A stretch of DNA of 64,000 nucleotides from Rhizobium sp. BT04. Lineage in GTDB: Bacteria > Pseudomonadota > Alphaproteobacteria > Rhizobiales > Rhizobiaceae. The notes under the pieces are model-generated. The model ran no database searches. It saw nothing but the letters and a program-made list of their open reading frames with translations, and was not told the origin of the DNA. A program made the position numbers and the translations under genes. Positions 1-36,587 of this stretch are shown one piece after another. Location: the NCBI RefSeq assembly GCF_030053135.1, contig NZ_CP125650.1, positions 248,001 to 312,000 of the forward strand. The letters run 5' to 3'. Numbering within the stretch: the first letter of the stretch is position 1; each line of letters opens with the position of its first letter.

Positions 1-199
1 CGAGGAAACCCAGGCTGACCGCCGGATTGAGATGCGCGCCCGAGACTGGGCCAATCGTGTAGGCCATTGCAACCACGGTCGTCCCGAAGGCTAAAGCGAC
101 ACCCAACAGGCCCACCTCTTGACGCATATAAAGCAATGTGCCGCAGCCGAGGAAGACAAGTGTGAAGGTCCCGAAGAATTCGCAAACATACTTTTTCAT
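1..199 (-). CDS. aqpZ: Aquaporin (AqpZ-like), N-terminal part
   Basis: The minus strand encodes the first 66 residues of a channel protein that runs off the left edge. The start ATG (199-197) follows a GGAG-type ribosome site. The N-terminus ([20 protein letters not shown]) is the usual first transmembrane helix of bacterial aquaporin Z, and the first NPA pore loop is visible ([12 protein letters not shown]). MIP-family channels carry water or small neutral solutes across the inner membrane. The second half, with the second NPA box and the selectivity residues, lies outside, so water and glycerol channels cannot be separated with certainty. Confidence 0.9.
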
Positions 200-895
200 T
201 TTTCACTCCATTGATTTGACCCCACGTACTTTTCGGTGTCATCCTCGTGCCGCCAAGCGTTCCGCATGCACCGAACCAATCATCGTGTCAGGTCCCGAAA
301 ACCTCCGTAGTTGACTTCAATTGCGTCCTTGTCCGACGAGATCGGCATCAGAGCCTATGGTCAACCAGCGTCACCGATCACCAGCAAACGTCGTACCAAA
401 TGAAATATGTTGCGCATCACAGCGATCGCTCTGATGACGTTCGGTCTTAGGTTCGAAAGTGCCGTGAACAGGATAGGCAGGCGAACCGTACCGAGACGTA
501 TGGACCCGAGCTGGGCTACGAACAAATCGCCAAGCAGCCCATCCTCAAATTATCGAAACAACGACCCTCTTCATGGCTCCAAGCGGAAGGTGGTGCAAAG
601 CAGGAACCAGGACAAGGGTTGATAAGACCGCCAGGGACGTTCACGAGAAGTCGAGTAACGCCCCTTAGCCACGAACAGGCACATGATCCTTGGCGCGATT
701 TGAAGTCCGCGTGAATTCCCTTGTCCCCAGCGCAACCGTCGACATTTTTCGCAAATGTCGGGCATTCGCCACTTTTGTCAGATTTGTCGTGACTGGAACG
801 TTTTGTTCGCCGGTCTCTCCGCCAAATACACATCAACCTGCCCTCAACCCGCCCATCGATAAACGAAAATCATCTTCTTGGCGCGTCGGAGCAGT
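200..895. other. Intergenic region without a convincing gene
   Basis: Several short open frames exist here but none has a ribosome site or recognisable protein content. The region separates the divergent aquaporin and phasin genes and probably holds their promoters. I see no other feature. Confidence 0.5.
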
Positions 896-910
896 TGGCA
901 TGGTGTTTGC
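896..910 (+). promoter_or_regulatory. Sigma-54 (-24/-12) promoter upstream of the phasin gene
   Basis: The sequence TGGCATGGTGTTTGC fits the RpoN consensus TGGCAYG-N4-TTGC at all fixed positions, with GG and GC at the required spacing. The phasin ATG lies about 190 bases downstream, leaving a long leader. In rhizobia such promoters are used with NifA or NtrC. I did not find a clear TGT-N10-ACA NifA site nearby. Confidence 0.55.
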
Positions 911-1099
911 TGATCCCTGGTTACAAGCGGCAGAAAGCAGTCTGCATGATGCCGGTTCATGAAACGAACGGAACGGAGGCCACCTGACCGTTCGTCATCG
1001 GATCCGCGTTCTACCAAAGCGGCCATGCATAGTCCGCCGGCGGAAGGGGTCAATCCCGATGTCACAGCTTGCAACCAACTCAAAGAGAAGGAAAATGCA

Positions 1100-1555
1100 A
1101 TGACCAAGATTTCCGAAAGATCCTTTGAAACGATCGAAAACCCGGGGTCATCGTCGCTCAAGGTGCCAGATCAGTTCGGCGCATCCGTTGAAAAGGGGAA
1201 CAAGCAGGTGACAGAGGCTCTTTTGAAATTTGCGTCCGGCGCTGAAGCGACACAGAAAATGCTGCCTCCGATCCTCGAAACGACAAGTCTATTCGGCAAC
1301 GAATTGTGGTGGAAGACGATCGCTGCACTGCAAGCCGACGCCGAGGCCGGCTTCTCACATTTGCAAGCTTTGCTGGGCGCGAATTCGCCGTCGCAGATCC
1401 TCGAACAGCAGTCGACCTTTTTCCGCAAGCGCGTTGAGACAAGTTTGCAGCACGCCAAGGAAGTCCGGGAGCTCTCAAGCAGGGCGGTGGAGGAAATCTC
1501 AAAGCCGGTCAAGGATGCTTTTGACAAGGTCCTGACGAACCCCAAAGCGACGTAA
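1100..1555 (+). CDS. Phasin family protein (PHB granule-associated)
   Basis: A 151-residue protein. The ATG at 1100 follows GAAGGA; an earlier in-frame ATG at 959 has no ribosome site and adds residues without phasin character. The body is helical and Ala/Gln/Glu-rich (for example FASGAEATQKMLPPILETT and GFSHLQALLGANSPSQILEQ), as in Phasin_2 proteins. These coat polyhydroxybutyrate granules and control their size and number, a major carbon store in rhizobia and bacteroids. It stands alone behind a sigma-54-type promoter at 896-910, which would fit expression under nitrogen-fixing conditions. The family call is good; the physiological role is inferred. Confidence 0.85.
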   Translation: MTKISERSFETIENPGSSSLKVPDQFGASVEKGNKQVTEALLKFASGAEATQKMLPPILETTSLFGNELWWKTIAALQADAEAGFSHLQALLGANSPSQILEQQSTFFRKRVETSLQHAKEVRELSSRAVEEISKPVKDAFDKVLTNPKAT

Positions 1556-1591
1556 AGTTGACTCGGCACTAAGATCAGGGCTGGACGAATC

Positions 1592-1760
1592 ATGATCGGA
1601 GCCGCTTTCGAGGAGACAACATTATGCGGCCGACTGATGTTTCATCTGTTCGCGGCGCTGGCGAATTCCGGCGTGATCTGGTCAGAGAGCGGACCCGTGC
1701 CGGCCCGGAGGAACGTGGTAGGCGCGGCGGCGGCCGCCGCAGATAAGCTTGCCAGGGCCT
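1592..1760 (+). pseudogene. Remnant of a serine resolvase/invertase
   Basis: A short piece of a serine recombinase is readable in two frames. The first frame gives GRLMFHLFAALA, and after a shift of frame the second gives EFRRDLVRERTRAGPEERGR. Together these match the helix-E region of Tn3-type resolvases (GRL.FH.FGALAEFERDL.RERT.AG). Nothing of the catalytic N-terminus or the DNA-binding C-terminus is left. It marks an old mobile-element junction just upstream of the 1.8-7.7 kb cluster. Confidence 0.6.
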
Positions 1761-1841
1761 CATCTGGTGGCTGGCCACAAAGTGCGCGAGGCCATCGCAC
1801 CTTACGAGGCTCTTAGATGGTTACATGTGGGGGATAGTAAA

Positions 1842-2396
1842 ATGATTGTAGCTGTTCCAAATAGCGGGGCGTCACGGATTAACCAATCCGGTGTAGAAGC
1901 ATTACGAGAATTTCCTAACTTTCCGATAGGCGGGATCTTGTTCAAGGATATAGCGCCTATGCTGGCTGGTAGAGGTGCATTGGGCGAAGTCGTTTCTACC
2001 GTCGCAAGCCAAGTGTCGGGAACAGAAATCGATGCCATTTTGGCGGTTGATGCGCGTGGTTTCATCTTGGGCGCCTCATTGGCTGATAGGCTCGGTTGCG
2101 GTTTCATCATGGTAAGGAAACCCGGTAAACTGCCGGGGGACGTCCTCTCATTTGAATACAGCTGTGAATACTGCTCCGGAACCCTGGAGGTAACTGCCGG
2201 CCTCATCGGTGACGGCCTGCGATGCCTGATTGCTGATGACCTTCTAGCGACGGGTGGCACTGCTCGGGCGACTGGGAATTTTGTCAAGTCCCAAGGCGGA
2301 GAGATCGCCGGATACGCATTCATACTCGAAATCGAAGTTTTGAAAGGCAGGCGTCAATTGGACGACGCACCAGTGATCAGTGCGATGACGTGCTAG
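1842..2396 (+). CDS. Adenine phosphoribosyltransferase-like protein
   Basis: A 184-residue type I phosphoribosyltransferase. The ATG at 1842 follows a GGGGA ribosome site; upstream in-frame codons lack one. Family hallmarks are FPIGGILFKDIAPML, ARGFILGASLADRLG, VRKPGKLPGD and the PRPP-binding loop LIADDLLATGGTA (about residues 129-141). Known Apt enzymes join adenine and PRPP to give AMP. It opens a same-strand run with a radical SAM enzyme, two small proteins, a nucleotidyltransferase-like protein and a PRPP synthetase homologue, so it is probably a pathway enzyme rather than the housekeeping salvage gene. The base it accepts cannot be read from the sequence. Confidence 0.85.
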   Translation: MIVAVPNSGASRINQSGVEALREFPNFPIGGILFKDIAPMLAGRGALGEVVSTVASQVSGTEIDAILAVDARGFILGASLADRLGCGFIMVRKPGKLPGDVLSFEYSCEYCSGTLEVTAGLIGDGLRCLIADDLLATGGTARATGNFVKSQGGEIAGYAFILEIEVLKGRRQLDDAPVISAMTC

Positions 2397-2427
2397 CGCA
2401 GCAACATAGACGTAAGGAGGCAAGCGC

Positions 2428-3696
2428 ATGAATACCCCTGATTGGCTTTCGACACCGCAGGACGTGCATGTAGCCAGTCAGACGCTACAGGCCCTCGTCA
2501 CAAGTGAACTTTCGAAACGAGTCGTCTCGGAAAACGAAATTAAAACGATCTATCTGTTTCTAACCCGCAAGTGCAATTTGGGATGCCACCACTGTTATAT
2601 CGCAGGCGTCGGGCCCAAGGCCAAGGGCATTGATTTCAACCTGGAGGCGATCCAAGGACTGATCGAGCAAGCACTACCCAATGGGCTGCGCAAGGTTAAG
2701 GTTTCCGGGGGTGAACCGATGGTTCACAAGGAATTCATGGCAGTCATGGAATATCTCGCATCCTGTGGGCTGAAGGAGCTGATTTTCGAGACGAATGGAA
2801 CCCTCTTTGACGAGTTCACGATCGAGCAGCTAAGTAGGCTCCCCAATTTGACGGTCTTCATCAGCCTCGACCATTTCGACCCAGAGGCGCACGACGCTTT
2901 CAGAGCAAAATCGGGTGCGTTCGCCAAGACTGCGATTGTCCTGCAGCGGCTTGGAAAAACTGACATCTCTACGGTGGTAACGACGACTGCCTATCGCAAC
3001 AACTATGACAAGGTGATTTCGATTATAGATTTGGTGCTCGGCTGGGGCATCAAGAAGCATCGGACGCTGCTCAACATACATCCGATGGGCAACGCGCGCA
3101 GCCATGAGGACAATGCGATAAGCTTGGAGGAATGCAAGCTACTGATAGGCGATCTTTTGAAATCTCCCCATTTTGAGAGTGGCGCTGCATACATGACTCT
3201 GCCGCCGGCTCTGATGCCTCTCAAGTATCTGAACGGCGTGCATACTTGCGGTTGGGGCGACAACGTACTGGGCATACTGTCGAACGGACAAGTTTCGATG
3301 TGCAGTGCCTCCTACGATGATCCGGAAATGATCGCCGGCAATGCCTTCGAAATGCCCTTGATGGAAATCTGGCGCAACAGCCCGTTCTTCCATGAGCTAC
3401 GCGAGGTGGTGAGTGGCGAGGTTAAGGGCGTCTGCGGCAACTGCGTGTTTTATCCAGTCTGTCGCGGCGTCTGCAAGATGAGTAGCTGGTCGCACTATGG
3501 TGAAAAGGACGCGCCCTATCCGCTGTGCCAGGAACTTTACAATAACGGAGGTTTTCCGGAGTACGCCCTGGTGGACCCGACGAAAGATTCCACCTACCGC
3601 CGCGGAGTTATAGCGAAAGAGCGTCGGCCCGCCGCCGAAGCTCCTGTCTATAACTTCTCGGAGGAAATCGCGGCTGCTGCGCAACACACTCACTAA
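2428..3696 (+). CDS. Radical SAM/SPASM domain enzyme
   Basis: A 422-residue protein starting at an ATG with a strong AAGGAGG site. The radical SAM cluster motif CNLGCHHC (C49, C53, C56) opens a TIM-barrel half, followed by the GGEP motif near residue 95. The C-terminal SPASM region carries C274, C292, C336, C339, C345, C349 and C367 in the classical seven-cysteine pattern, so two auxiliary iron-sulfur clusters are likely. SPASM enzymes mostly modify ribosomally made peptides or protein side chains (AlbA, PqqE and anSME types). It lies 31 bases after the phosphoribosyltransferase gene and upstream of two small orphan genes that are candidate substrates. The reaction is unknown. Confidence 0.9.
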   Translation: MNTPDWLSTPQDVHVASQTLQALVTSELSKRVVSENEIKTIYLFLTRKCNLGCHHCYIAGVGPKAKGIDFNLEAIQGLIEQALPNGLRKVKVSGGEPMVHKEFMAVMEYLASCGLKELIFETNGTLFDEFTIEQLSRLPNLTVFISLDHFDPEAHDAFRAKSGAFAKTAIVLQRLGKTDISTVVTTTAYRNNYDKVISIIDLVLGWGIKKHRTLLNIHPMGNARSHEDNAISLEECKLLIGDLLKSPHFESGAAYMTLPPALMPLKYLNGVHTCGWGDNVLGILSNGQVSMCSASYDDPEMIAGNAFEMPLMEIWRNSPFFHELREVVSGEVKGVCGNCVFYPVCRGVCKMSSWSHYGEKDAPYPLCQELYNNGGFPEYALVDPTKDSTYRRGVIAKERRPAAEAPVYNFSEEIAAAAQHTH

Positions 3697-3776
3697 CGCA
3701 GGAGGCGCGACGTAATAATTGCTGTGTCGACGACGTAATTTAACCAGGTCAACAAAAATAACGTGGAGGATTGAGG

Positions 3777-4271
3777 ATGAGCAGAGCTTTCCGAGGTGCG
3801 GCGGGTGTGGCGCACACACTTGCGAACAACGCGATACGATCCGGCAACAAAGCAGCCGCCCAGCAAGCCCAGGTGATTTCTCGTCTCGCGGAAGGACTCG
3901 CCCGGCTGCAGGCGGGTTTGGATGACCAAGCTCAGCAATTGACGGCTGGCCTTGTAAAATTAGAGCAATCGCTAAAGGTGTCACGCAGATCGCAACGGTC
4001 GAAATCCGGCTCACTCGCTGCTAACGGCGAACTACAAGACTACTACGTTGATATAACCGCCTCGAAGAAATTTGGCAAAGCCAATTGGCCGCGCGCCGCC
4101 GATTCAGGTCTTGTAGGACGCCGCATTGGGCGAGGACCGGTTAGGATGACTGGTTCCGACACACAATCGGCAAAGGCGGTTACCGCCGCATTCGCCAAAC
4201 TTCTCTCGGCTCAGGCACAATTGCTGCAGATACGCAGTGAAGTGGAAGACCTCAAGAAGGTTCAGAGGTAG
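3777..4271 (+). CDS. Small helical protein of unknown function in the radical SAM cluster
   Basis: 164 residues. The ATG at 3777 sits six bases after GGAGGA; a TTG at 3771 is in frame but overlaps this site. I do not recognise a family. Residues about 20-70 and 135-164 are amphipathic and Gln/Leu/Ala-rich (AQVISRLAEGLARLQAGLDD; LLSAQAQLLQIRSEVEDLKK), suggesting coiled coils. The middle is basic, glycine-rich and less structured (ANWPRAADSGLVGRRIGRG). There are no cysteines, signal peptide or membrane segment. Placed directly after the SPASM enzyme and 5 bases before the next small gene, it could be a modified substrate, a scaffold or a leader-binding partner. Confidence 0.7.
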   Translation: MSRAFRGAAGVAHTLANNAIRSGNKAAAQQAQVISRLAEGLARLQAGLDDQAQQLTAGLVKLEQSLKVSRRSQRSKSGSLAANGELQDYYVDITASKKFGKANWPRAADSGLVGRRIGRGPVRMTGSDTQSAKAVTAAFAKLLSAQAQLLQIRSEVEDLKKVQR

Positions 4272-4276
4272 CGGCA

Positions 4277-4606
4277 ATGGCTAGTTCCCGACTGTTTGGC
4301 TACGCCGTTGACGAAGAGGATGGCAAGCTGGTAATCGTGATTGACGGATTGCTTGCCGAAAGTTGCATCCGGCAAATTCGGGACAGCGCCCAGACGGGCC
4401 GCGGTGGTGAACTCTTGTCGCGATTGCTGCCGGTAAGTTCGGTTTACAAGCTTATGTCTGGACAAGAGGAACGCGCTGAAGAAACGCTCAGCCTTGAACA
4501 GTTGCTTGGACAAAACGTCGACCAGAGTTTCGCTTCCTTCGAACAACAGTTCGCCGACCTGAGGCAGACACTAGCCGAATTCGGCAGCCCGGAAAGTTCG
4601 AAATAA
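4277..4606 (+). CDS. Second small orphan protein in the radical SAM cluster
   Basis: 109 residues, starting 5 bases after the previous gene, with AGAGG upstream of the ATG. No family is recognised. The N-terminal half looks globular (LFGYAVDEEDGKLVIVIDGL) and has one cysteine (SCIRQIRDSAQTGRGGEL). The C-terminal half is a likely helix (LEQLLGQNVDQSFASFEQQF). The size, the conserved-looking spacing and the position between the SPASM enzyme and the nucleotidyltransferase make it a second candidate substrate or carrier. This role is inference only. Confidence 0.65.
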   Translation: MASSRLFGYAVDEEDGKLVIVIDGLLAESCIRQIRDSAQTGRGGELLSRLLPVSSVYKLMSGQEERAEETLSLEQLLGQNVDQSFASFEQQFADLRQTLAEFGSPESSK

Positions 4607-4635
4607 ATCACGCAGCCGTATCAGGAGTCTCCGCG

Positions 4636-5751
4636 ATGCTTCGGTTGTCACCAGAAGACTCTATTTTGCTGATCACCTGCCGGGCCTACCTACGACCCGA
4701 GGATGAAGAGCGTTTGGTCCGTCTCTGCAAGGAGCCTGTCAACTGGCCCTATGTGGTATGGCGCGCCGAGCATAATCGGACGGTGCCGCTGCTTGAGAAT
4801 CACTTGCGCCGCCTCGATTTGTTGACACTATTGCCTACTGAGGCGGCGCATTACGTTCAGTGCTGGACTGTCATGTCAAAGGTCAGGTCCGCACTCGAAT
4901 TTCGCAATCTGCCAGAAATCATGGATGCGCTGGATCGGGCCGGCATCGCCTGGTTCCTGGTGAAGGGACCAGATCTCGCGCTTCTCCACTATCCCGATCC
5001 ACTCCTACGGCCGATGACCGATCTCGACATCATGGTCAAGCCCGCTGACGCGCAGCGCGTGCAGCGGCTCATGTTCGATCTCGGCTACCGGCACGGTATT
5101 TTCGACCCTTCAAATGGCAACTGGCATCCGGAACGAAAGGAACTCGATGACGAAACCTTCCGCGAAAGTTATTCCTTGCCGGTGTTTGTAAGGATAGAAT
5201 CCGTTGAATCTCCGTTCCCTGGTCCCGCGGTGCCACGCCAGCTGCGCTACCGCCACGTAAAGGGATACATCGATTCCGCGAAGAAGCTGCACATGCCCAT
5301 CTTCATTGATATGCATGTAAATCTCTCCGTCGGCATCGATGTCGAAGACATATGGTCAGGCGTGCGTCTTGCAAACGGTCTAGGCCGCATATTGCAGGTC
5401 CAATCCGCGACTGGCGCCGTCTGGTTCCTTTCGGCCAGGCTTTATCACGAGGCCTTCCTTTATAATTCGCTTCGACTATTGATGTTCGGCGATCTTCATG
5501 CGGTTCTACACAAAGAAATGGCGAATATTAGCTGGGCGGAGGTCGCTGCGATAGGTTACAAATACGAGATGAGGCCGGCGTTATATTTCGTCCTGACGCA
5601 GATGAAGCGCATCTGTGGGATAGACATACCGTCCGAGTTCCTAGAGCTCATTCGACCTGATCAAACCGAGGTACCACTTCAACATGATTGGGGCGACGTG
5701 TTGCCCAAACTGCTGTCTATTCCCACTGTTAACGATCTTGAGCTGGCGTAA
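4636..5751 (+). CDS. Nucleotidyltransferase-like protein (NTP_transf_5 type)
   Basis: 371 residues, ATG preceded by AGGAG. The central motif FLVKGPDLALLHYPDP followed by RPMTDLDIMV (K110-G111, D129 and D131) is the signature of the uncharacterised nucleotidyltransferase family PF14907, with the two metal-binding aspartates in the DLD motif. Such proteins are often found in peptide and polysaccharide biosynthetic clusters, where they may transfer a nucleotide or act as a kinase-like modifier. The rest is helical and lacks membrane segments. It is co-directional with the small orphan genes and ends two bases before the PRPP synthetase homologue, so these are almost certainly cotranscribed. Confidence 0.75.
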   Translation: MLRLSPEDSILLITCRAYLRPEDEERLVRLCKEPVNWPYVVWRAEHNRTVPLLENHLRRLDLLTLLPTEAAHYVQCWTVMSKVRSALEFRNLPEIMDALDRAGIAWFLVKGPDLALLHYPDPLLRPMTDLDIMVKPADAQRVQRLMFDLGYRHGIFDPSNGNWHPERKELDDETFRESYSLPVFVRIESVESPFPGPAVPRQLRYRHVKGYIDSAKKLHMPIFIDMHVNLSVGIDVEDIWSGVRLANGLGRILQVQSATGAVWFLSARLYHEAFLYNSLRLLMFGDLHAVLHKEMANISWAEVAAIGYKYEMRPALYFVLTQMKRICGIDIPSEFLELIRPDQTEVPLQHDWGDVLPKLLSIPTVNDLELA

Positions 5752-5753
5752 AT

Positions 5754-6695
5754 ATGGCGCCCGAGTCACCATATCGTACAGATCCTGCGGCGAACGACCT
5801 TCGTATCGCAGCAACCGAAACCTCTGCAAAGTTTGCGTCAACAGTCCATCGGGCCCTCACGCGGTCAGGAATAACGATCCTAAACACGCAGGTGTTCAGC
5901 AATGGCCAGATGGCTGTCACTCCGCGCGACGGCGGGCTTGGCGGAAATGTGGTGGTCGTGCAAACATTTCCTGACAGCGTTCATGATCGTCTTTTCGAGT
6001 TGTTCCTAGCGCTTGGTGCCGTGCGGGCGCGGGGTCCCCGCACGATTACCGCTGTTCTTCCCTACCTCCCATATTCGCGTTCGGATCGCCCTGCCTTCGA
6101 CGGCGGACCTGTACCGGTGCGAATCCTTGCGGGGATTATCGAAACTCTCGGTATAGATCGGCTGATAACTTTCGAACTCCATGTTCCTCAGCTGTGCGCC
6201 GCATTTGCCTGTCCTGTCGTCAATCTTCAGTTCGCTCCCGCCCTAGTTCGCCATCTCGGTTCTGCGGCCGTCGATGGCGACATGGTCGTTTCACCGGATT
6301 TCGGCGGAGCGAAGCGAGCTGAGCACTTGGCGGCCCTGCTCGGCTGCCCATTCGCTGTCATGCGCAAGCACCGCAGAGACGATGATGACTTTCGGGAGAG
6401 CGTCGAGATTCTGGGGGACGTTGCTGGCCGGACGATCATCCTGATTGACGACGAAATCAACAGTGGTCAGACGGCTTTTTCAGCCGCCGCACATCTCAAA
6501 GCGGCAGGCGCTCGCAAGATAACCCTTGCCGCAGCCCATGCCATATTCACGCCGTCGCTGAACGAAAACTGGGGACGGTCTCAGATCGACCGCATCGTTG
6601 TGACCGACAGCGTCGGACGTACCGACAATTTCCCCGACAGTGTCGAAGTAGTCTCGATCGGCAACGAAATTGCAGGCGCGCTGCAGGCACGCTGA
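5754..6695 (+). CDS. Ribose-phosphate pyrophosphokinase (PRPP synthetase) homologue
   Basis: 313 residues, close to the usual 310-320 of the family. Visible motifs are PYLPYSRSDR (103-112), ELHVPQ (141-146), VSPDFGGAKRAE (179-190) and the PRPP loop LIDDEINSGQTA (230-241). The loop differs from the usual DDxIDTGGT. The enzyme should make PRPP from ribose 5-phosphate and ATP. It starts two bases after the preceding stop, so it is translationally linked to the nucleotidyltransferase gene. A dedicated PRPP source in a cluster with a phosphoribosyltransferase suggests that a phosphoribosyl unit is built into the product. Confidence 0.85.
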   Translation: MAPESPYRTDPAANDLRIAATETSAKFASTVHRALTRSGITILNTQVFSNGQMAVTPRDGGLGGNVVVVQTFPDSVHDRLFELFLALGAVRARGPRTITAVLPYLPYSRSDRPAFDGGPVPVRILAGIIETLGIDRLITFELHVPQLCAAFACPVVNLQFAPALVRHLGSAAVDGDMVVSPDFGGAKRAEHLAALLGCPFAVMRKHRRDDDDFRESVEILGDVAGRTIILIDDEINSGQTAFSAAAHLKAAGARKITLAAAHAIFTPSLNENWGRSQIDRIVVTDSVGRTDNFPDSVEVVSIGNEIAGALQAR

Positions 6696-6701
6696 GAAGC
6701 A

Positions 6702-7736
6702 TTACCTGAAATCTAGCATCACGCGATTAACACGTGGATCGAGCGCCTGCTCGAATGCCTCTTGGGCGTTTGACGAGGGCCAAAGATTGACCTGCAGCAC
6801 GTCGAAGCGTGCGGCGTGTTCAACGATGGTTCGGATGGCATTTCTCACGTCGTCCGCGCTTTGGGCTATGGTGCCGATCAGTTCAATTTCCCGGTAATGC
6901 AGAAAGTTAGCGCCTACCGATAACAAATCGGACGTCGGAATCGATTGGTAGAGTACAATCCTGGCACCGCGTGACGCCGCAGCTATGGCCCCCTGAATGC
7001 CTCTGACACCGAAGCGCGTGCAAAAGATGCAGTCGAAGCCCCAGCCATCCGTTAATTTCTCGACGAGTTTCGGATCAGACAGAGAATGAACTGACCCCGT
7101 TGCATGGGCGCCGGTCGACATCACAGGCCCATGCGTTGCCACGTCGTCATCGAAAAGGTAAACGTCGCATCCTTTGGTTGTCAGAAGTATCGAATGGAGA
7201 AGGCCCATCGTGCCTCCGCCGATGACGGCCACAGTGTCTCCAGCCTTTGCACGCGCCCTATTTATGCCGCGTGCCACGCAGGCGACAGGTTCAACTAACG
7301 CGGCACGCTCGGGAGCCAAAAAGGAAGGTACGGAAAAAACCTGATAGGCGGGTACGCCCACAAAATTGGCCAATCCCCCCGGCCCCTGCGGCACCCCTCC
7401 TCTCGCTTTAGGATTTAAATATGCACAGTGGTTGTCCAGTCCGAGGCGGCAGGCACGACATTGGCCGCATCTGCGCATTAAAAGCACCGCAACGCGGTCT
7501 CCTACGCGCAGGCCATCCGGTACATCGTCCGGCAGAGACACGATCGTGCCTGACAACTCGTGCCCGCCCCAATAGGGGTAAGTCGGCTTGGCGCCCCGAT
7601 AAACGCGTTGCTCCGGTGTGCAGAGTCCACACAACTCTATCCGCACACCGACTTCGGACGATACGGCGAGTGGAACCGACAATGTCCATTCTTCAACCTT
7701 GCGGGGGCAAGTAATTACGAGTCCACGAACCTCCAT
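6702..7736 (-). CDS. Zinc-dependent alcohol dehydrogenase-like oxidoreductase (MDR family)
   Basis: 344 residues from the ATG at 7736, which has GAGAGG seven bases upstream; an in-frame ATG at 7811 has no site. Catalytic-zinc residues are in CGLCTPEQRVYRG and the GHE motif, and the structural-zinc loop is CGQCRACRLGLDNHC. The Rossmann fingerprint is VAVIGGGTMGLL. These medium-chain enzymes oxidise alcohols or sugars with NAD(P). It is convergent with the PRPP synthetase gene, with only six bases between the stops, and probably belongs to the same pathway under its own promoter. The substrate is unknown. Confidence 0.85.
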   Translation of the reverse strand: MEVRGLVITCPRKVEEWTLSVPLAVSSEVGVRIELCGLCTPEQRVYRGAKPTYPYWGGHELSGTIVSLPDDVPDGLRVGDRVAVLLMRRCGQCRACRLGLDNHCAYLNPKARGGVPQGPGGLANFVGVPAYQVFSVPSFLAPERAALVEPVACVARGINRARAKAGDTVAVIGGGTMGLLHSILLTTKGCDVYLFDDDVATHGPVMSTGAHATGSVHSLSDPKLVEKLTDGWGFDCIFCTRFGVRGIQGAIAAASRGARIVLYQSIPTSDLLSVGANFLHYREIELIGTIAQSADDVRNAIRTIVEHAARFDVLQVNLWPSSNAQEAFEQALDPRVNRVMLDFR

Positions 7737-7835
7737 ACGAGACCTCTCGCTCCCCGACACACCGACTATCCTAATATGTACACTTACTTGCATCCAGAAT
7801 CTAGCCAACAACCACAGGCGGCAGTCAGAAAGCTG

Positions 7836-7976
7836 ATGAAATCACGTGCCTTGCTGGCGGGCTTGCTTATGTCCTGGGTCTTGACAAGCTTCTCGGAGAT
7901 ATCGTCGGCGCAAACGGCAAAGGACGTTTCAAGCGGCAGAAGTGTTCCCTTGCGCAAGGAGCGACGAAACTATTGA
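7836..7976 (+). CDS. Very short secreted protein or N-terminal remnant
   Basis: A 46-codon frame begins MKSRALLAGLLMSWVLTS and continues to SSAQTAKDVSS, which is a good Sec signal peptide with a cleavage site near AQ. Only about 20 mature residues follow before the stop. It may be the 5' end of a lost periplasmic-protein gene, because the next 170 bases contain no continuation that I recognise. The ribosome site is weak. Confidence 0.35.
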   Translation: MKSRALLAGLLMSWVLTSFSEISSAQTAKDVSSGRSVPLRKERRNY

Positions 7977-8146
7977 AGGTAGAGTGGAGCGCTTGGGCCG
8001 CGTCAATGCCACCAGCCTCAAACACGAGCCGCGGTTTACCAGCCCGTTCTTCGATGCATCCTCATCTCTGCGAAGATGCCATGTCGCCTTCCCTCATCTG
8101 CCCGCGCGAACCCTCCTAAGAGCCTATCGCCACATCGTCCAAAGCT

Positions 8147-8818
8147 TCATCCTTCGTGGCGCACCGGTTCGAACCGAACAGACCAACAATCCGAGTCGCA
8201 CCGAGAAGGATGACGGCAACTAGATCGGTAGTTGGGCGGCCGCAACATCAGAAAGGTCTCAGCGTTTGCTGGACGCGTGCCTGCGATGGCGGTGGTGGCA
8301 ACGATCTTCTCTGGCTGCCCCAAGCGCGGGAGAGGCCATTCGACGCTAGCAAGAGTTCGCTCGAACCTGATATCCGTTACCGCAACGACTTCGCTGAGAC
8401 CACCTCCCAGGCACCATTCTACGATGCCGGCGAACAAGGTCAGCGTTGCCTCGTGAACGGAACCATCTCCCCTCCCCTCCCCTCCACTCTTCGAGGTGTC
8501 GACGCAAAAGCGAGAACTCTAGACCATCAGGGGATTGGCGTTCAGGCGACCCTTCGGGAGCAGAGACGGAAATACGTCTACCAGCATGGTCGGTCCCATC
8601 GCAGACAAATCGCGTGCACATCCTGCAAGTGGTCCAGCCGCGGTGACATCCAGGATGGCAGTCGGGGCGAGAGCGTCAACCCCATCTGCCTCGCACTCGT
8701 CGACTACTTCTACATCCCAAGTGCGAGTGGAAAAGATCCTCGCACGTAGCCTATGATCGTCCTGAAGCAGCTACGCTTCGTAGTAAATTTTTGGTGTCGA
8801 GATCGCGAATACCTGCAT
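8147..8818 (-). pseudogene. traI: Acyl-homoserine-lactone synthase (TraI/LuxI family) with two in-frame amber codons
   Basis: One uninterrupted frame from ATG 8818 to the stop at 8147 reads as a 223-codon LuxI-type protein except for TAG at codon 16 (8773-8771) and codon 100 (8521-8519). Matching segments are HRLRARIFSTRTWDVEVVDE, MGPTMLVDVFPSLLP, SSRFCVDTS (where intact proteins have ESSRFCVDT), LFAGIVEWCLGGGLSEVV and RFERTLASVEWPLPRLGQP. LuxI enzymes make acyl-homoserine lactones from SAM and acyl-ACP. The second TAG replaces the conserved Glu and is one GAG-to-TAG change. Position and divergent orientation relative to repABC match traI of quorum-regulated rhizobial plasmids; no trb genes follow. 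Confidence 0.85.
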
Positions 8819-9143
8819 GAATTTCTCCGCCGCCGTTAGGCGCCGGGAACTCTGCACGAATTGGAATCGGGCGTCCGTTGTCGAATGCTTACGGTTTTGT
8901 GCGAGTGAGTCGCGGCAAGGGGATCACCGACTTTGCCGAGGTCTTCTGCTTTTCGTCTAAATCGCCGGGGCACATTTGTAGGATTCACAATAAAACACAC
9001 CATGACCAATCGGTACCGCGGTCTTGCTAAGCTGCAGGATATAAACGGAAAAATCCATTTACTCTACGTTCCGGGTTTATCCACGTTAGCCTTTCGTTAA
9101 CCTAAAACCCCTTGCTCAAAATGCAGAATCGGCTCTAATAGCT
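8819..9143. other. traI-repA intergenic region
   Basis: This divergent region should hold the repABC and former traI promoters. I looked for an 18-bp tra box dyad and for the GTT-N4-GC-N4-AAC partition site and saw neither. Confidence 0.4.
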
Positions 9144-9184
9144 AGTGGCGGAACTTTAGCGGTTTCGCGAAAAGTTCCGCCACT
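9144..9184. repeat. Perfect 14-bp inverted repeat in front of repA
   Basis: The arms AGTGGCGGAACTTT (9144-9157) and AAAGTTCCGCCACT (9171-9184) are fully complementary, with a 13-base loop. It ends 8-20 bases before the candidate repA ATGs. repABC modules often carry a repA operator dyad here that RepA, with RepB, binds for autorepression. It could also act as an RNA hairpin over the ribosome site. Confidence 0.7.
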
Positions 9185-9204
9185 TGCAGGAAATGGATTT
9201 TGAG

Positions 9205-10419
9205 ATGGCGAAAACCGCAGCAAAAACAGCGCCGGTCGTCGAAGGGTTGACCGCATTGATGGAGCGTCATGCTGACGCTCTCTCCAGCCAACTTCAAGCA
9301 CATCATCTCAAGGTCTTCCCGCCGACGTCCGAAAAGGGCATTCGATCCTTTGCACCGTCAGAAGCCTCAAAATTGCTTGGCATCGGTGAGTCTTATCTTA
9401 GACAAACTGCTTCGGAAATGCCTGAACTGCACGTTAGTATGAGCCCTGGCGGTCGACGCACGTTCACGATCGAAGATATTCATTCAATCCGTAAGCACCT
9501 GGACCTGATTGGCCGCGGGAACCGGCGCTACCTGCCCCATCGTCGCACGGGGGAGCAGCTTCAAGTCGTCTCGGTGATGAATTTCAAAGGCGGCTCGGGC
9601 AAGACGACGACAGCCGCGCATCTGGCACAGTACCTGGCAATGCGTGGCTACCGGATTCTCGCGATTGATCTTGATCCCCAAGCAAGCCTTTCCGCACTCT
9701 TCGGCAGTCAGCCAGAAACTGACGTTGGTCCGAACGAAACACTCTATGGCGCCATCCGGTATGATGACGAGCAGGTCCCAATCGAGCAGGTTGTCCGAGG
9801 AACGTACATCCCGGATCTTCATCTAATTCCTGGCAATCTTGAACTGATGGAGTTTGAGCACGATACCCCGCGCGCGCTTATGAACCGGAAGGAAGGTGAC
9901 ACGCTTTTTTACGGTCGGATCAGTCAGGTCATCGAAGACATCGCGGACAACTACGATGTCGTCGTTATCGATTGCCCTCCCCAACTTGGCTATCTCACGC
10001 TTTCAGCTCTGACCGCCGCAACCTCGATCCTCGTCACCGTCCATCCCCAGATGTTGGATGTAATGTCGATGAACCAGTTTCTGGCGATGACCTCGAATCT
10101 CCTTCGGGAAATCGAGAACGCAGGCGCCCAGTTCAAGTTCAATTGGATGCGCTACCTCGTCACTCGTTTTGAACCGAGCGATGGCCCGCAGAACCAGATG
10201 GTGGGCTATCTGCGTTCGATCTTTGGCGAAAATGTCCTCAATTTTCCGATGCTCAAGACGACCGCCGTTTCGGACGCTGGCCTGACGAATCAAACCCTCT
10301 TTGAGGTTGAGCGCGGACAGTTCACGCGCTCGACCTATGATCGGGCCTTAGAGGCGATGAACGCCGTCAACGACGAGATCGAAACTCTAATCAAAAAAGC
10401 ATGGGGTAGAACCACATGA
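9205..10419 (+). CDS. repA: Plasmid partitioning protein RepA (ParA-type ATPase)
   Basis: About 404 residues from ATG 9205; ATG 9193 and TTG 9184 are in-frame alternatives, and none has an ideal ribosome site. 9205 gives the usual RepA length and avoids the hairpin. The N-terminus carries a MerR-like DNA-binding region (FAPSEASKLLGIGESYLRQ). The ATPase part has the deviant Walker A motif KGGSGKTTTAAHLAQYLA and the Walker B strand VVVIDCPPQLG. RepA drives partition of plasmid copies with RepB and represses the repABC operon. The stop overlaps the repB start (ATGA), so the two genes are translationally coupled. Confidence 0.95.
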   Translation: MAKTAAKTAPVVEGLTALMERHADALSSQLQAHHLKVFPPTSEKGIRSFAPSEASKLLGIGESYLRQTASEMPELHVSMSPGGRRTFTIEDIHSIRKHLDLIGRGNRRYLPHRRTGEQLQVVSVMNFKGGSGKTTTAAHLAQYLAMRGYRILAIDLDPQASLSALFGSQPETDVGPNETLYGAIRYDDEQVPIEQVVRGTYIPDLHLIPGNLELMEFEHDTPRALMNRKEGDTLFYGRISQVIEDIADNYDVVVIDCPPQLGYLTLSALTAATSILVTVHPQMLDVMSMNQFLAMTSNLLREIENAGAQFKFNWMRYLVTRFEPSDGPQNQMVGYLRSIFGENVLNFPMLKTTAVSDAGLTNQTLFEVERGQFTRSTYDRALEAMNAVNDEIETLIKKAWGRTT

Positions 10420-11441
10420 GTCGGAAGCACCTCCTTGACGTCACCACGGACGCGCCCGACAGCTCATCAGCTGCTGAACACAGAGCGGCAAAGACTCGCT
10501 CCATGCCGCTTCTCGGCGTGACCAGAAAAGAACGAGATCCAGCGACGAAGCTGACTGCAAACATCGGTAACGCGTTGCGCGAGCAAAATGATCGTCTTGG
10601 TCGTGCCGAGGAGATCGAGCGGCGTCTCGCCGAAGGTCAGGCCGTGGTTGAACTGAACGCGTCGTCAATCGAGCCGTCCTTCGTTCAGGATCGCATGCAA
10701 GGTGATATCGAAGGACTTCTTGCATCCATCCGCGAGCAAGGACAGCAGGTCCCAATCCTTGTGAGACCTCATCCCGTTAAACCCGCGCACTACCAAGTTG
10801 CCTTTGGACATCGCCGGCTGCGCGCCGTTTCGGAGCTAGGACTGCCGGTCAAGGCGGTTGTTCGAGACTTGACGGACGAGCAGTTGGTTGTCGCACAGGG
10901 TCAGGAAAACAATGAGCGCGAAGACCTCACCTTCATCGAAAAGGCACGTTTCGCACACAAGCTAAACAAGCAGTTTCCACGAGAAATCGTCATCGCGGCT
11001 ATGTCAATCGATAAAAGCAACTTGTCGAAGATGCTCCTGCTTGTTGACGCCCTCCCCTCTGAATTGATCGATGCCATCGGCGCCGCTCCAGGCGTTGGAC
11101 GCCCAAGTTGGCAGCAATTGGCAGAGCTGGTTGAGAAAGCATCGCCTCCGGCAGGCGCTGCGAAATATGCTGCCTCGGAGGAGGTGCAGGCGCTGCCGTC
11201 GTCGGAACGGTTCAAGGCAGTGATCGACCATCTGAAACCGCGTCGGACTGCGCGCGGGTTGCCAGACGTCCTGTCGACCCCCGATGGCGACAGGCTTGCG
11301 CAGGTCACGCAGAGCAAGAGCAAGCTAGAAATTACCATTGACAGGAAAGCCACGCCGGATTTCGCGGCTTTCGTACTCGAGCATTTGCCGGCGCTTTACC
11401 AGGAGCATCGCGCAAAGCATCAACGGAAACAGGGAGTGTAA
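10416..11441 (+). CDS. repB: Plasmid partitioning protein RepB (ParB-type centromere binding)
   Basis: 341 residues, starting in a 4-base overlap with repA. The ParB core is clear: ILVRPHPVKPAHYQVAFGHR, QENNEREDLTFIEKARFA and an HTH around SIDKSNLSKMLLLVDALPSE. The C-terminal part is the dimerisation region. RepB binds parS palindromes, here probably the GTGGTCAGCTGACCAC sites downstream of repC, and loads them onto RepA for segregation. It also acts as co-repressor of the operon. The length is typical for the family. Confidence 0.95.
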   Translation: MSRKHLLDVTTDAPDSSSAAEHRAAKTRSMPLLGVTRKERDPATKLTANIGNALREQNDRLGRAEEIERRLAEGQAVVELNASSIEPSFVQDRMQGDIEGLLASIREQGQQVPILVRPHPVKPAHYQVAFGHRRLRAVSELGLPVKAVVRDLTDEQLVVAQGQENNEREDLTFIEKARFAHKLNKQFPREIVIAAMSIDKSNLSKMLLLVDALPSELIDAIGAAPGVGRPSWQQLAELVEKASPPAGAAKYAASEEVQALPSSERFKAVIDHLKPRRTARGLPDVLSTPDGDRLAQVTQSKSKLEITIDRKATPDFAAFVLEHLPALYQEHRAKHQRKQGV

Positions 11442-11596: not shown

Positions 11597-12805
11597 ATGC
11601 AGTCGGGGAATGTAGCGACGCCGTTCGGGCGGCGGCCAATGACGCTTGCGCTCGTGCGGCGCCAGGCGGCAATGGAAATCAAGCATGGAAAAGCTGCCGA
11701 TAAGTGGAAAGTGTTGAGAGACGCTTCCGCCGCGATGGAACTGCTCAAGATCCAGTCGAACAGTCTGGCTGTTCTTGACGCACTTTTGAGTTTTTATCCT
11801 GACAATGAGTTGCGTCAGGATGCACAATTGATTGTCTTCCCCTCGAATGCCCAACTGGCGCTTCGGGCGCATGCAATGGCGGGCGCAACGTTGCGGCGGC
11901 ATATTGCCATTCTGGTGGAGTCGGGGTTGATCGCCCGTAAGGATAGCGCCAATGGCAAGCGCTTCGCCCGCAAGGGCGACGATGGCCAGATCGAGAATGC
12001 TTTTGGCTTCGACCTGTCGCCCCTCCTGGCGCGATCGGAAGAGTTGGCGATGTTGGCGCAAAGAGTGGCGGCCGAGAGAGCCTCGCTCAGGAAAGCCAAA
12101 GAGAGCCTTACAATTTGCCGGCGGGATGTTCGCAAACTTATTACTGCTGCAATGGTCGAGGGCGCCGACGGCGATTGGAAGACGACCGAGGACATCTACA
12201 TTGCGCTCGCGAGCAGAATTCCGCGCGTTCCGACCCTTGAAGGGGTCACTAGCGTTCTCAATGAAATGGAGATGCTCCGTGAGGAAGTGCTTAATCGTTT
12301 GGAAAACCTCGAGAATGCTGAAAAAATTAGCACCAATGCTGCTCATATCGAGCAGCACATACAGAATTCAAAACCCGAATCCGTAAATGAATCTGAACCA
12401 CGCTCCGAAAAGGAGCAGGGGGCAAAGGCGAGCTTGAGCCATCAGCCGAAGAATGAATCGCAAAGGGCGTTCCCCTTGGGATTGGTGCTCAAGGCGTGCC
12501 CGATGATCAGCGACTATGCACCGCGCGGCGTGGGGAGCTGGCGAGATCTGATGTCTGCCGCTGTGGTGGTTCGATCTATGCTGGGGGTAAGCCCTTCCGC
12601 CTACCAGGATGCCTGCGAGGCGCTAGGACCGGAGAATGCTGCGGTGGCAATTGCGTGCATCCTGGAAAGGGCTAACTTCATCAACTCTCCTGGAGGCTAT
12701 CTGCGGGATCTAACGCGCCGAAGTGAGCGCGGTGAATTCTCGCTTGGCCCGATGATAATGGCGTTGTTGAAGGCCAACGGGCAAGGCGGTTTGAGGGCTG
12801 GGTAA
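11597..12805 (+). CDS. repC: Replication initiator RepC
   Basis: 402 residues with a clear RepC N-terminal half (TPFGRRPMTLALVRRQAAME; VFPSNAQLALRAHAMAGATL; LRRHIAILVESGLIARKDS), which is a winged-helix region. The C-terminus is PRGVGSWRDLMSAAVVVRSM and GYLRDLTRRSERGEFSLGP. RepC is the limiting initiator and acts at an origin inside its own gene. The locally A/T-rich stretch near 12290-12400, around the linker, is the likely origin. Expression is set by the antisense RNA just upstream. Confidence 0.95.
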   Translation: MQSGNVATPFGRRPMTLALVRRQAAMEIKHGKAADKWKVLRDASAAMELLKIQSNSLAVLDALLSFYPDNELRQDAQLIVFPSNAQLALRAHAMAGATLRRHIAILVESGLIARKDSANGKRFARKGDDGQIENAFGFDLSPLLARSEELAMLAQRVAAERASLRKAKESLTICRRDVRKLITAAMVEGADGDWKTTEDIYIALASRIPRVPTLEGVTSVLNEMEMLREEVLNRLENLENAEKISTNAAHIEQHIQNSKPESVNESEPRSEKEQGAKASLSHQPKNESQRAFPLGLVLKACPMISDYAPRGVGSWRDLMSAAVVVRSMLGVSPSAYQDACEALGPENAAVAIACILERANFINSPGGYLRDLTRRSERGEFSLGPMIMALLKANGQGGLRAG

Positions 12806-12845
12806 GTGCGGCTGATCGTTATTCCTGCCGTTGAGGATTTCGGTT

Positions 12846-12861
12846 GTGGTCAGCTGACCAC
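12846..12861. other. parS: parS-like centromere palindrome, copy 1
   Basis: GTGGTCAGCTGACCAC is a perfect 16-bp palindrome centred on GC, 40 bases after repC. It matches the rhizobial parS layout (GTT-N4-GC-N4-AAC) except for the third base of each arm. An identical copy lies at 16359-16374. Several repABC plasmids place parS downstream of repC. RepB binding is inferred. Confidence 0.65.
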
Positions 12862-13255
12862 CAAGCTAACCCCTTGGAAAACACCAACTTTCAAAGGCGG
12901 CTTGTCGCAGGCATTGTGCCGGTTACCGTCTGGCTCCCGAGCCAAATGACGCCTCTTAGGGGAACAGTAGACCGTGATCTCAATACGAACGCGCCCAAGG
13001 TCGCGCACGAACAAGACCAGGAGCGAAGTCTTCGCACGAAATGGCAGCCGCCTTTCATCAATTCATTGGCACCGGCGCGGCAAATCGCAAGGCGGCCGGC
13101 TGTGCCGGCTAATCGCGAGTGGGCGATGGCGCCGCATGGATAGGACGCAATAGGAACAAGTACCTGCTGCCATCCGCAGCGCCGGAATCTACGGGGCTGA
13201 TTCGCGGCGGCACTTCCACAACACTGGGAGAATTCATCAACCGCTATCTTGGGCG
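12862..13255. other. Region between parS copy 1 and the IS nest
   Basis: About 400 bases with no recognisable gene. Open frames here lack ribosome sites and known protein motifs. It is probably part of the original sequence downstream of repC. Confidence 0.4.
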
Positions 13256-13259
13256 AGGT

Positions 13260-13500
13260 GACGCAATGAGCCACTCGACCCTATGGTCTTTTGACCAGGC
13301 AAGAATGGCATTCGAGGTGAGTTTGGTGCCGTTGTCGGAGAGATCATTGCGAGTTTCGAGCGAGGCGACGACCGGAGATCGAGGTGTCCGGGGATCGCCG
13401 CGAGGCATTCTCGCGTCGCGTCATCGACGATGTTGAGCACGCGAAACCCCCTTCCGTAAGCGAACTTGCAGGCGCGCGCGCACCGATCCTGGCCAACGCG
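13260..13500 (-). pseudogene. IS3-family transposase fragment
   Basis: The minus strand reads GFRVLNIVDDATRECLAAIP, then continues in shifted frame through a stretch equivalent to the DNGTEFTSNA region. This matches the DDE core of IS3-family (IS407-like) OrfB. Both ends of the gene are missing, and it abuts the C-terminal end of an IS4-family transposase. A second, longer copy of the same gene type lies in the opposite orientation at 14523-15172. Confidence 0.7.
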
Positions 13501-13544
13501 AAGGCTCTGCCCGCTGGTCGCTGGATTTTGTTCGTGACCAAAAG

Positions 13545-14380
13545 CAAATGATCCAGTGGAACATTTCTCCACCGAACGACTGAGGCATATACCTATCTCG
13601 CAAGGCCCAGCCATCGGCACAGTATTTGAGTCCGTTGAAGAAGGTGATGGGTCCAGGCGGCTTGGAGGAGGCATAGCCGTTCCAGCCGCCGAGTTTGGCG
13701 ATGATCCAAGCGGCCCAGGCGAGCGAAGCTTTGGGATGGGGATTGGATTGCAGCTTGGTCTTGCCCTTGAAGCGGCTTTCGAGGGCGGCGAGCGTGTTGA
13801 TCTCGTGGGGACTGACTGCCAGGCTTGCCGGGTGAGGATCGCCGCCACTGCGGTCCTGCACGAGTTGGAGGACGATTGCCGCGGCCTTGGCGGCGATGGC
13901 GACGAGCTTTTCCAGCCGCGGCGCTAACTGCAATTGGCTGTCCTCGATCTTGAAGCCCTGCGTCTTCATCACCCGGAAGAACTGCTCGATCATCCAGCGC
14001 TGCTTGTACCAAGCGACGATCTGCCAGGCGTCAGTCGCACTGGAGAGCGCATGGGTGGTCAAGAGCAGCCAATGCAAGGGCTCGACACCGTCGGGTGCGT
14101 CCGGTTCGACGACCTCGACCCAACTGAGCCTAACCCCGTCGGGCAGCCCTTCTTCGCGCAGGTTTTGCGGTTGCCTGATCGTCGCCTGGCCGAAGCGCAG
14201 GCACAACGTTGCCTGCCGCGCCGGACGGTCGGCGCGCTCGCGCAGCTCGATCGTTTGGGTGTCGCAGAACCGAACTGTCTCTACGACATCACGCAGTTTA
14301 GAGCCGCCGATGAGTGCATGGTCATGCATGACGCGCGACAAAAGATCGAAGCGTTGGTCGGGCAGGTGCGCCCACATCAT
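13545..14380 (-). pseudogene. IS4-family transposase, C-terminal two thirds
   Basis: The frame contains WYKQRWMIEQFFRVMKTQGF, the Y-(2)-R-(3)-E-(6)-K signature of IS4-family transposases, and the adjoining LEKLVAIAAKAAAIVLQLVQ helix. The N-terminal part, which carries the first catalytic aspartate (VGDRESD), is cut near 14385, next to the heptamer repeat array. The 3' end runs without its own stop into the IS3 fragment. It is therefore inactive. Confidence 0.75.
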
Positions 14381-14430
14381 AAAGAAGTCGCCCTATTGCG
14401 CGACCTCGCCAATGAGCGATGGCGTTTCGG

Positions 14431-14493: not shown

Positions 14494-14522
14494 CGGCTTC
14501 GGCGGGGGGGGAGCGCCGTTGG

Positions 14523-36573: not shown

Positions 36574-36587
36574 TTGACGAGCATCAA
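36574..36587. promoter_or_regulatory. FNR/FixK-type box (anaerobox)
   Basis: TTGACGAGCATCAA fits TTGA-N6-TCAA. It lies 67 bases before the start of the small minus-strand gene. Confidence 0.6.

Follow-up and report, generated by a model that had tools for sequence, protein, structure and literature searches.

Organization of the gene cluster

The window analyzed here is the whole 64,000-nucleotide stretch of Rhizobium sp. BT04 presented above (contig NZ_CP125650.1, positions 248,001 to 312,000), and it sits on contig C4 of the 6.99-Mb genome. It contains a seven-gene cluster (Table 1) encoding an adenine phosphoribosyltransferase (APRT)-family protein, Apt; a radical S-adenosylmethionine (SAM) enzyme with a SPASM domain; two small orphan proteins of 164 and 109 residues; a nucleotidyltransferase-like protein of family PF14907; a ribose-phosphate pyrophosphokinase-family protein, Prs; and a zinc-binding medium-chain dehydrogenase (MDR). 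An earlier note on this DNA had described five co-directional genes behind apt with gaps of 2 to 80 nucleotides and a convergent dehydrogenase gene six nucleotides from the last stop, all of which is confirmed by the sequence and by family scans. Each gene opens at the position given there. From apt to prs, six genes lie head to tail, separated by 31, 80, 5, 29, and 2 nucleotides, and 6 nucleotides separate prs from the stop codon of the convergent MDR gene.

Table 1. Positions within the window of the cluster genes and of the conserved motif in the 164-residue protein (aa, amino acids).
Feature	Positions	Strand	Family or basis
apt, adenine phosphoribosyltransferase-family protein, 184 aa	1842-2396	+	NF002636; PDB APRTs
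Radical SAM/SPASM enzyme, 422 aa	2428-3696	+	PF04055, PF13186
164-aa orphan protein, candidate substrate	3777-4271	+	Unassigned in Pfam, NCBIfam, and PADLOC
Motif conserved in the 164-aa protein at residues 88-125 (YYV..., then PRAADSGLVGRRIGRGPVRM), putative site of modification	4038-4151	+	
109-aa orphan protein of the LFGY...LGQN family, probable nucleotidyltransferase partner	4277-4606	+	20 proteins listed
NTP_transf_5 (PF14907) nucleotidyltransferase-like protein, 371 aa	4636-5751	+	109.5 bits, cut-off 31.2
prs, ribose-phosphate pyrophosphokinase-family protein, 313 aa, deviant sugar-phosphate loop DDEINSGQT	5754-6695	+	TIGR01251
MDR, zinc-binding medium-chain dehydrogenase, 344 aa, convergent with prs	6702-7736	-	PF08240 (ADH_N)

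Conservation of the cluster

The cluster is a real conserved unit. Conserved linkage of the genes had been set as a test beforehand, and the set does recur in cyanobacteria and in part in Parabacteroides. A core of apt, the radical SAM gene, prs, and the MDR gene is found in Rhizobium and in two cyanobacterial genomes; no others turned up among the 338 and 386 genomes searched around one of these, Petrachloros mirabilis (2 of 386 across the phylum). The radical SAM enzyme of Petrachloros (record L008) is 69% identical to that of the window. Its gene (9523-10803) follows apt (8950-9522) and precedes genes for an HD hydrolase, two small peptides, and a PaaK-like adenylate-forming enzyme (12137-13639), then prs (13667-14581) and an MDR gene convergent with prs. 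The PaaK-like label comes from NCBIfam matches below cut-off (best 86.7 bits versus 300) and weak PDB matches. The two tandem peptides, of 79 and 83 residues, have the C-terminal end GFGAPRFG[GT]FR in common, and a G-x-P-R element can be seen both in this system and in that with the 164-residue protein, which may be due to chance. The other cyanobacterial genome (G432), of the same class as Petrachloros, contains apt, the radical SAM gene, homologues of both the 164- and 109-residue proteins, a PF14907 gene, and an MDR gene with which prs is convergent. Both small proteins, whose possible absence from related clusters the earlier note had raised, are therefore present in this one. In all three loci that have both a radical SAM gene and prs, small-protein genes sit between the two, as either the 164/109-residue pair or the two tandem peptides.

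A more distant version is observed on a Parabacteroides distasonis plasmid (L005, 9636-14643). Here, genes for a NadR-kinase-like protein, a CMP-kinase-like protein, a radical SAM enzyme (36-39% identical), an MDR (34%), and a hypoxanthine phosphoribosyltransferase (HPRT) form one run behind a polysaccharide locus, the last four being adjacent to one another. The HPRT scores 172.4 bits against TIGR01203 (cut-off 150).

The radical SAM enzyme is found at E <= 1e-60 in 4 of 397 genomes of the order, all of this genus and including the genome under study. A profile scan of genome contigs gave at least 80 loci, and among the matches listed only those in R. vallis (L007, 100% identical) and Petrachloros are close; the other 78 matches listed, at 29% identity or below, arise because the search patterns are loose. 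None was found in viral contigs. A count of 0 of 297 genomes in the phylum around an Acidobacteria metagenome-assembled genome had no positive control and is uninformative. Nineteen relatives of the 109-residue protein lie outside the near-identical cluster, nine of them on contigs under 2.3 kb. Judged by equal contig sizes, matches to the radical SAM enzyme and the 109-residue protein putatively share a contig in five cases (2,563,446, 125,815, 33,504, 5,999, and 5,847 bases), and matches to the two small proteins do so in three (2,563,446, 42,270, and 2,287 bases). Counting against conserved linkage, Bradyrhizobium sp. 191 (contig of 8,312,872 bases) has a relative of the 109-residue protein with no radical SAM partner at E <= 1e-40 among the matches listed.

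Two rhizobial copies are interrupted. An ISRel15 insertion sequence (IS) of the IS66 type lies between the 109-residue gene and the PF14907 gene on plasmid p42d of R. etli CFN42 (L105, 12604-16254), and an IS3-type element occupies the same place in Rhizobium sp. TAL182 (L135, 1618-4035). The PF14907 match starts only at residue 31 or 28 in these two strains; in other strains, the cluster copies are without interruption. These splits, and the commonness of the Prs and Apt families, would suit plasmid metabolic genes that merely stand beside a radical SAM operon and share no pathway with it. That explanation is barely credible, however, and is largely refuted because the gene set recurs across phyla, in cyanobacteria and partly in Bacteroidota, in altered order and orientation.

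The radical SAM enzyme

The cysteines of the C49xxxC53xxC56 motif, together with C274, C292, C336, C339, C345, C349, and C367, are invariant in 20 aligned sequences. The enzyme has a full SPASM domain with all of the auxiliary-cluster cysteines, a feature of peptide-modifying enzymes in the biosynthesis of ribosomally synthesized and post-translationally modified peptides (RiPPs). Structures matched by its profile are those of SkfB, 5v1q (which we take to be SuiB), cytosylglucuronate decarboxylase, PqqE, MoaA, and the viperins. Among the best 25 NCBIfam models, none is matched above its cut-off. The best is the SynChlorMet model TIGR04251 (ScmF), with 168.7 bits versus a cut-off of 400; the Parabacteroides enzyme scores 148.4 bits against it. 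The likeness to SynChlorMet ends with this match, which is far below cut-off, and no Scm family is among the matches listed for the other six proteins.

The enzyme resembles the maturases MftC and PqqE in its SPASM architecture and presumably in having a small ribosomal substrate, for which there is a candidate here. These relatives, the presence of an MDR gene in all four distinct radical SAM loci examined, and the failure to recognize an exporter in the cluster would fit a peptide-derived, mycofactocin-like cofactor that is used by the MDR and obtains its nucleotide part from Apt and the PF14907 protein. Such a cofactor is quite improbable, however: the radical SAM enzyme lies far below the relevant cut-offs (107.7 bits versus 265 for MftC), Pfam and NCBIfam scans of the cluster reveal no peptidase or glycosyltransferase, and the MDR looks like an ordinary zinc enzyme. 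A further difference from these maturases is that the genome under study has no PqqD-type chaperone.

The core of the enzyme (residues 41-198) matches the PADLOC model pVip, which has no curated cut-off, with 56 bits, and, as noted above, viperin structures are matched as well; a viperin-kinase model is matched by the CMP-kinase-like protein of Parabacteroides with 82 bits. The bean cluster differs from prokaryotic viperins in containing Prs, Apt, small proteins, and a full SPASM domain, a domain that viperins are not known to have. A role in anti-phage defence, considered on the basis of these two scores, was not adopted; the scores serve as a lead for the nucleoside product weighed below.

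The 164-residue protein as candidate substrate

The earlier note had described both small proteins as lacking a known family and had proposed either of them as the substrate. No Pfam family is found for either, and the 109-residue protein has a single, chance-level NCBIfam match (E = 0.084). Both do have relatives, as 6 and 20 proteins are listed for the 164- and 109-residue queries, respectively, each set including a near-identical rhizobial protein.

The AlphaFold2 model of the 164-residue protein, built from 8 sequences, has a mean predicted local distance difference test score (pLDDT) of 61.6 and is composed of helices at residues 3-22, 25-76, and 127-163, with pLDDT below 50 across residues 72-132. 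When 7 sequences are compared, the near-duplicate P0001 being left out, the best-conserved 21-residue window of 144 starts at residue 106. Mean pairwise identity reaches 0.85 for residues 105-125, compared with 0.44-0.66 in the helices; the two linkers have values of 0.19 and 0.31. A stretch that is conserved yet predicted to be unfolded is what would be expected of a site for modification or docking; with so shallow an alignment, a folded part could also stay unpredicted. In the homologue from G432, a 27-residue unit spanning YYV...GLVG is duplicated in frame, with 76 of the 78 nucleotides compared being identical, which is weak evidence, as it is one case from an incomplete genome. Because the most conserved residues lie in the putatively disordered stretch and the in-frame duplication falls there, the 164-residue protein is the better candidate for the substrate, and the other half of the original proposal gives way to a different role for the 109-residue protein.

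The 109-residue protein, PF14907, and a second module type on clover plasmids

Judged from gene neighborhoods, the 109-residue protein is probably not a substrate but a partner of the nucleotidyltransferase, because its adjacency to PF14907 is kept in clusters without a radical SAM gene. Genes of this type adjoin PF14907 genes in six records (L095, L102, L103, L116, L133, and L134). Among 46 matching plasmid records, 12 carry distant relatives of the protein (28% identical), and these 12 all come from Trifolium. Relatives of the PF14907 protein occur on 17 of 51, of which 16 are from Trifolium (15 at 38-39% identity and one at 30%) and one is from Rhizobium sp. CB3171 (24%).

Four of the Trifolium plasmid records were inspected (L116, L133, L134, and L117). 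The first three have the gene order 138-residue LFGY protein, PF14907 protein, NAD(P)-binding protein, hypothetical protein, with the genes behind PF14907 annotated as shorter or split in L133. The copy in L117 (strain TpK) looks decayed, since PF14907 is present only in pieces. In L116 (9600-13829), the five-gene cluster comprises an unannotated ORF (open reading frame) for a basic 94-residue protein, the 138-residue gene, the PF14907 gene, and genes for a flavoprotein-like and a thymidylate-kinase-like protein, followed by luxR/luxI; this plasmid also carries nifN and nifE. The same five genes recur in two genomes that belong to a different genus within the family (L102 and L103). No homology is established between the sequences of the 94- and 164-residue proteins. 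The 109-residue-type gene and PF14907 are thus shared with clover clusters that have no radical SAM gene; therefore, by gene content, a small basic or helical protein, an LFGY protein, and a PF14907 protein form a module joined to one of two alternative enzyme branches, either the radical SAM enzyme, Prs, Apt, and MDR or the flavin and kinase enzymes.

Two further observations were made in this set. In Rhizobium sp. CB3171 (L118, 1510-9703), the PF14907 protein (70.4 bits) adjoins a 132-residue orphan, and unannotated ORFs there read as an ABC transporter, acetyltransferase-like proteins, and a large radical-SAM-like protein, giving a RiPP-like cluster. The clover symbiosis plasmid of L116 also carries, at another place (L120, 30844-34893; pRL4b1), annotated genes for a RiPP radical SAM epimerase and a C-methyltransferase.

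Prs, Apt, and the dehydrogenase

Apt scores 198.8 bits against NF002636, above the cut-off of 125, and 165.7 against TIGR01090, below the cut-off of 185.85; the other listed APRT models are also missed. It retains the Y-S-C-E-Y and DDLLATGGT motifs. Prs scores 216.5 bits against TIGR01251 (cut-off 113) and keeps K-x-R in its flexible loop. Contig C6 of the genome harbors second copies of both prs and apt (that of apt at 1666776-1667258), and the cluster genes are not simple duplicates of these, because each is only 36% identical to its counterpart. The sugar-phosphate loop is DDE[IV]N[ST]G[QE][TS] in all three cluster copies of Prs versus DDIVDSGGT in the second copy, and F[SP]NGQ stands in all three in place of FADQE. 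Two Prs signature patterns are matched by the second copy but by none of the three cluster copies; failure of one of the two is weak evidence, because this pattern, a blunt test, also fails on the otherwise ordinary-looking Apt of the window. The sequence suggests that the cluster Prs may use a sugar phosphate other than the usual one. That this enzyme makes ordinary phosphoribosyl pyrophosphate (PRPP), as the earlier note would have it, is uncertain because the loop deviates in all three clusters compared.

The MDR retains its catalytic and structural zinc-ligand motifs in the four cluster copies compared. At E <= 1e-10 it has 28 PDB matches, for the most part to alcohol and threonine dehydrogenases but also to galactitol-phosphate, arabinitol, xylitol, and ketose enzymes. 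An MDR on an Embleya plasmid (34% identical), in a part of the record that carries no annotation, was judged unrelated, as no radical SAM or phosphoribosyltransferase gene was noticed in the ORF list, which was inspected without a homology search.

The combination of Prs- and APRT-family proteins in one cluster has a counterpart in angustmycin biosynthesis, where a dedicated pyrophosphokinase, AgmC, and an adenine phosphoallulosyltransferase, AgmE, make an unusual adenine nucleotide (PMC8599513). The six enzymes named there include neither a radical SAM enzyme nor small proteins, both of which are present in the bean cluster. By analogy, the cluster might produce a small nucleoside: Prs would activate an unusual sugar phosphate derived from the radical SAM enzyme and the MDR, Apt would couple adenine to it, the PF14907 protein or the PaaK-like ligase would tailor the product, and the small proteins would be carriers or assembly proteins. 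The AgmC/AgmE logic, the changed Prs motifs next to a retained K-x-R, and the sugar-alcohol dehydrogenases among the mostly alcohol and threonine dehydrogenase matches of the MDR are in line with such a product. So are the matches of the radical SAM profile to cytosylglucuronate decarboxylase and the viperins, and the Parabacteroides version with its NadR-kinase-like, HPRT, and CMP-kinase-like proteins. On the other side, no equivalents of AgmD, AgmA, AgmB, or AgmF are recognized; when the seven proteins are scanned with Pfam and NCBIfam, there is no match to an epimerase, phosphoribohydrolase, phosphatase, or S-adenosylhomocysteine-hydrolase-like dehydratase, all of them activities of an angustmycin-type pathway, and the tandem cyanobacterial precursor-like peptides and the conserved disordered motif would be left unexplained. 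A small nucleoside is accordingly regarded as possible but rather doubtful.

Alternatively, the nucleotide enzymes may merely support a peptide-modifying radical SAM enzyme by salvage, with Apt or HPRT recycling adenine, or hypoxanthine after deamination, from 5'-deoxyadenosine with PRPP supplied by Prs, and with the MDR handling the sugar. Adenine and hypoxanthine are the two bases expected from 5'-deoxyadenosine salvage, and the phosphoribosyltransferases of the bean and Parabacteroides loci do pass NF002636 and the HPRT model, respectively. This explanation is nevertheless unlikely. The genome already contains a second prs and apt, loss of the canonical loop is unexpected in a plain salvage Prs, and no nucleosidase or deaminase is recognized in the cluster by Pfam or NCBIfam; other radical SAM clusters are also not known to need adenine salvage.

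Proposed pathway

The gene set, its conservation, and the catalytic motifs are as observed above; from these we infer all of the chemistry, the sequence in which the reactions occur, and what each of the two small proteins does. Tentatively, the cluster is read as a RiPP-like pathway in which the radical SAM enzyme modifies the motif of the 164-residue protein; Prs, Apt, and MDR build a dedicated adenine nucleotide; and the PF14907 enzyme joins the two. The 164-residue protein would be the ribosomal substrate, with two coiled helices presenting a flexible Gly/Arg/Pro-rich motif to the SPASM enzyme. Prs would add diphosphate to a sugar phosphate, which may be ribose 5-phosphate or, since the Prs loop deviates, a related compound; Apt would replace the diphosphate by adenine; and the MDR would oxidize or reduce the sugar. 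With the 109-residue protein holding it, the PF14907 enzyme would then move the nucleotide or its sugar phosphate onto the modified 164-residue protein, and the product would be formed in nitrogen-fixing bacteroids. The RiPP-like character is proposed because small-protein genes lie between the radical SAM gene and prs, because SkfB, 5v1q, and PqqE are among the structural matches, and because of the conserved disordered motif. The dedicated nucleotide branch is proposed because of the divergence of the second prs and apt copies and the angustmycin precedent.

Several points weigh against this pathway. No protease, exporter, or RiPP recognition element (RRE) was found in the cluster. A PqqD domain is absent from the Pfam scan of the cluster and from the genome, whereas such a domain occurs in 12 of 41 genomes examined for it, and the profile of the 109-residue protein is unlike PqqD (hhalign probability 0.4%, with 2 of the 11 PqqD rows badly cut); RRE/PqqD-type recognition domains are not present in all RiPP classes. 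The AlphaFold2 model of the 109-residue protein is too poor for a fold search (pLDDT 57.8), which makes its assigned role a guess. By sequence, no homology is established between the Petrachloros peptides and the 164-residue protein, and the radical SAM core resembles the viperins, enzymes that act on nucleotides. The Parabacteroides neighborhood shows no prs, small-protein homologue, or recognizable precursor, and the neighbors are nucleotide kinases. Finally, the PF14907 step may be dispensable in CFN42 and TAL182, because an IS element intervenes and the PF14907 match starts late.

If the RiPP-like pathway is correct, it unites SPASM maturation of a ribosomal protein with a dedicated Prs/phosphoribosyltransferase branch, a pairing not met in the literature searched. 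That the cluster makes a new class of ribosomal product or modified protein in bean nodules, carrying a nucleotide built by its own Prs-like and phosphoribosyltransferase-like enzymes, with the clover flavin/kinase cluster as a sister system sharing the substrate-plus-PF14907 module, is somewhat unlikely; the chemistry joined to this module would then be interchangeable between the symbiosis plasmids of two host groups. The cluster provides a handle on the uncharacterized PF14907 family, on which nothing was found in the literature searched, mostly without subscription papers. The earlier note had matched the set to no described pathway, and the same is found here: the literature searched on radical SAM enzymes, RiPPs, PRPP, and nucleotidyltransferases, with the nearest papers judged by title, describes no such cluster.

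Nucleotidyltransferase-like tailoring of a ribosomal peptide has been described for the lasso peptide pseudomycoidin, for which the nucleotidyltransferase homologue PsmN is needed for the attachment of hexoses to phospho-serine, its true activity being called open (PMC9266682). Combining this precedent with that of angustmycin makes the proposed pathway the simplest of the models. Similar to the pseudomycoidin pair of the kinase PsmK and PsmN, the clover-type cluster combines a PF14907 protein with a kinase-like protein. The bean cluster differs in having no recognized lasso B or C proteins or kinase and in having a 164-residue protein in place of a short precursor. A further weakness of the proposed pathway is that PsmN is only presumably a member of PF14907.

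Symbiosis plasmid, expression, and regulation

The cluster is carried by the symbiosis plasmid of rhizobia that nodulate bean. Positions 1-9000 of the window are matched by 40 plasmid records, all from Rhizobium, with at least 80% coverage in 34 of them, and among the 30 matches listed the host, where stated, is Phaseolus vulgaris. ORFs at 9184-10419, 10416-11441, and 11597-12805 correspond to repA, repB, and repC of annotated plasmids. A phasin gene lies directly upstream of the cluster (ORF 959-1555, with a start near 1100 in the p42d annotation). In R. etli CFN42, nolL and a NifX-associated gene are neighbors of the cluster on p42d. About 7.5 kb upstream of apt on that plasmid (346761-350261; L106, 12762-16262), a 126-bp ORF and genes for an HlyD-type adaptor and a peptidase-domain ABC transporter form a group resembling a bacteriocin export system. 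Export by this transporter as part of the cluster was rejected, because nolL, an aquaporin gene, and the NifX-associated gene stand between it and apt.

The p42d gene RHE_RS31115 is the cluster apt (100% identical). Table 1 of a proteome study lists it for bacteroids and the other apt, RHE_RS15525, for minimal medium (PMC9611204). A bacteroid network groups the neighbors nolL, aquaporin, and phasin with RHE_RS31115 and the radical SAM gene, RHE_RS31120 (PMC11387232). The locus tags of the 164-residue, 109-residue, PF14907, and prs genes are absent from the main texts of both studies, and that of the MDR gene is absent from the main text of the second. The cluster is a testable candidate for the source of a bacteroid metabolite or modified protein not yet described, because it lies on a symbiosis plasmid, because apt and the radical SAM gene appear in bacteroid data, and because a related module occurs on clover plasmids, with nif genes present on at least one of them.

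At 896-911, upstream of the phasin gene, TGGCATGGTGTTTGCT resembles a sigma-54 site apart from one mismatch. Sigma-54 control was rejected, as the window shows no enrichment of the pattern (38 found versus a mean of 29.4 in shuffles). Neither a NifA-type TGT-N10-ACA site nor a FixK-like box is found near the cluster. Elsewhere in the window, positions 36574-42980 contain five perfect FixK-like boxes, TTGA-N6-TCAA, versus 0.92 expected from shuffles.

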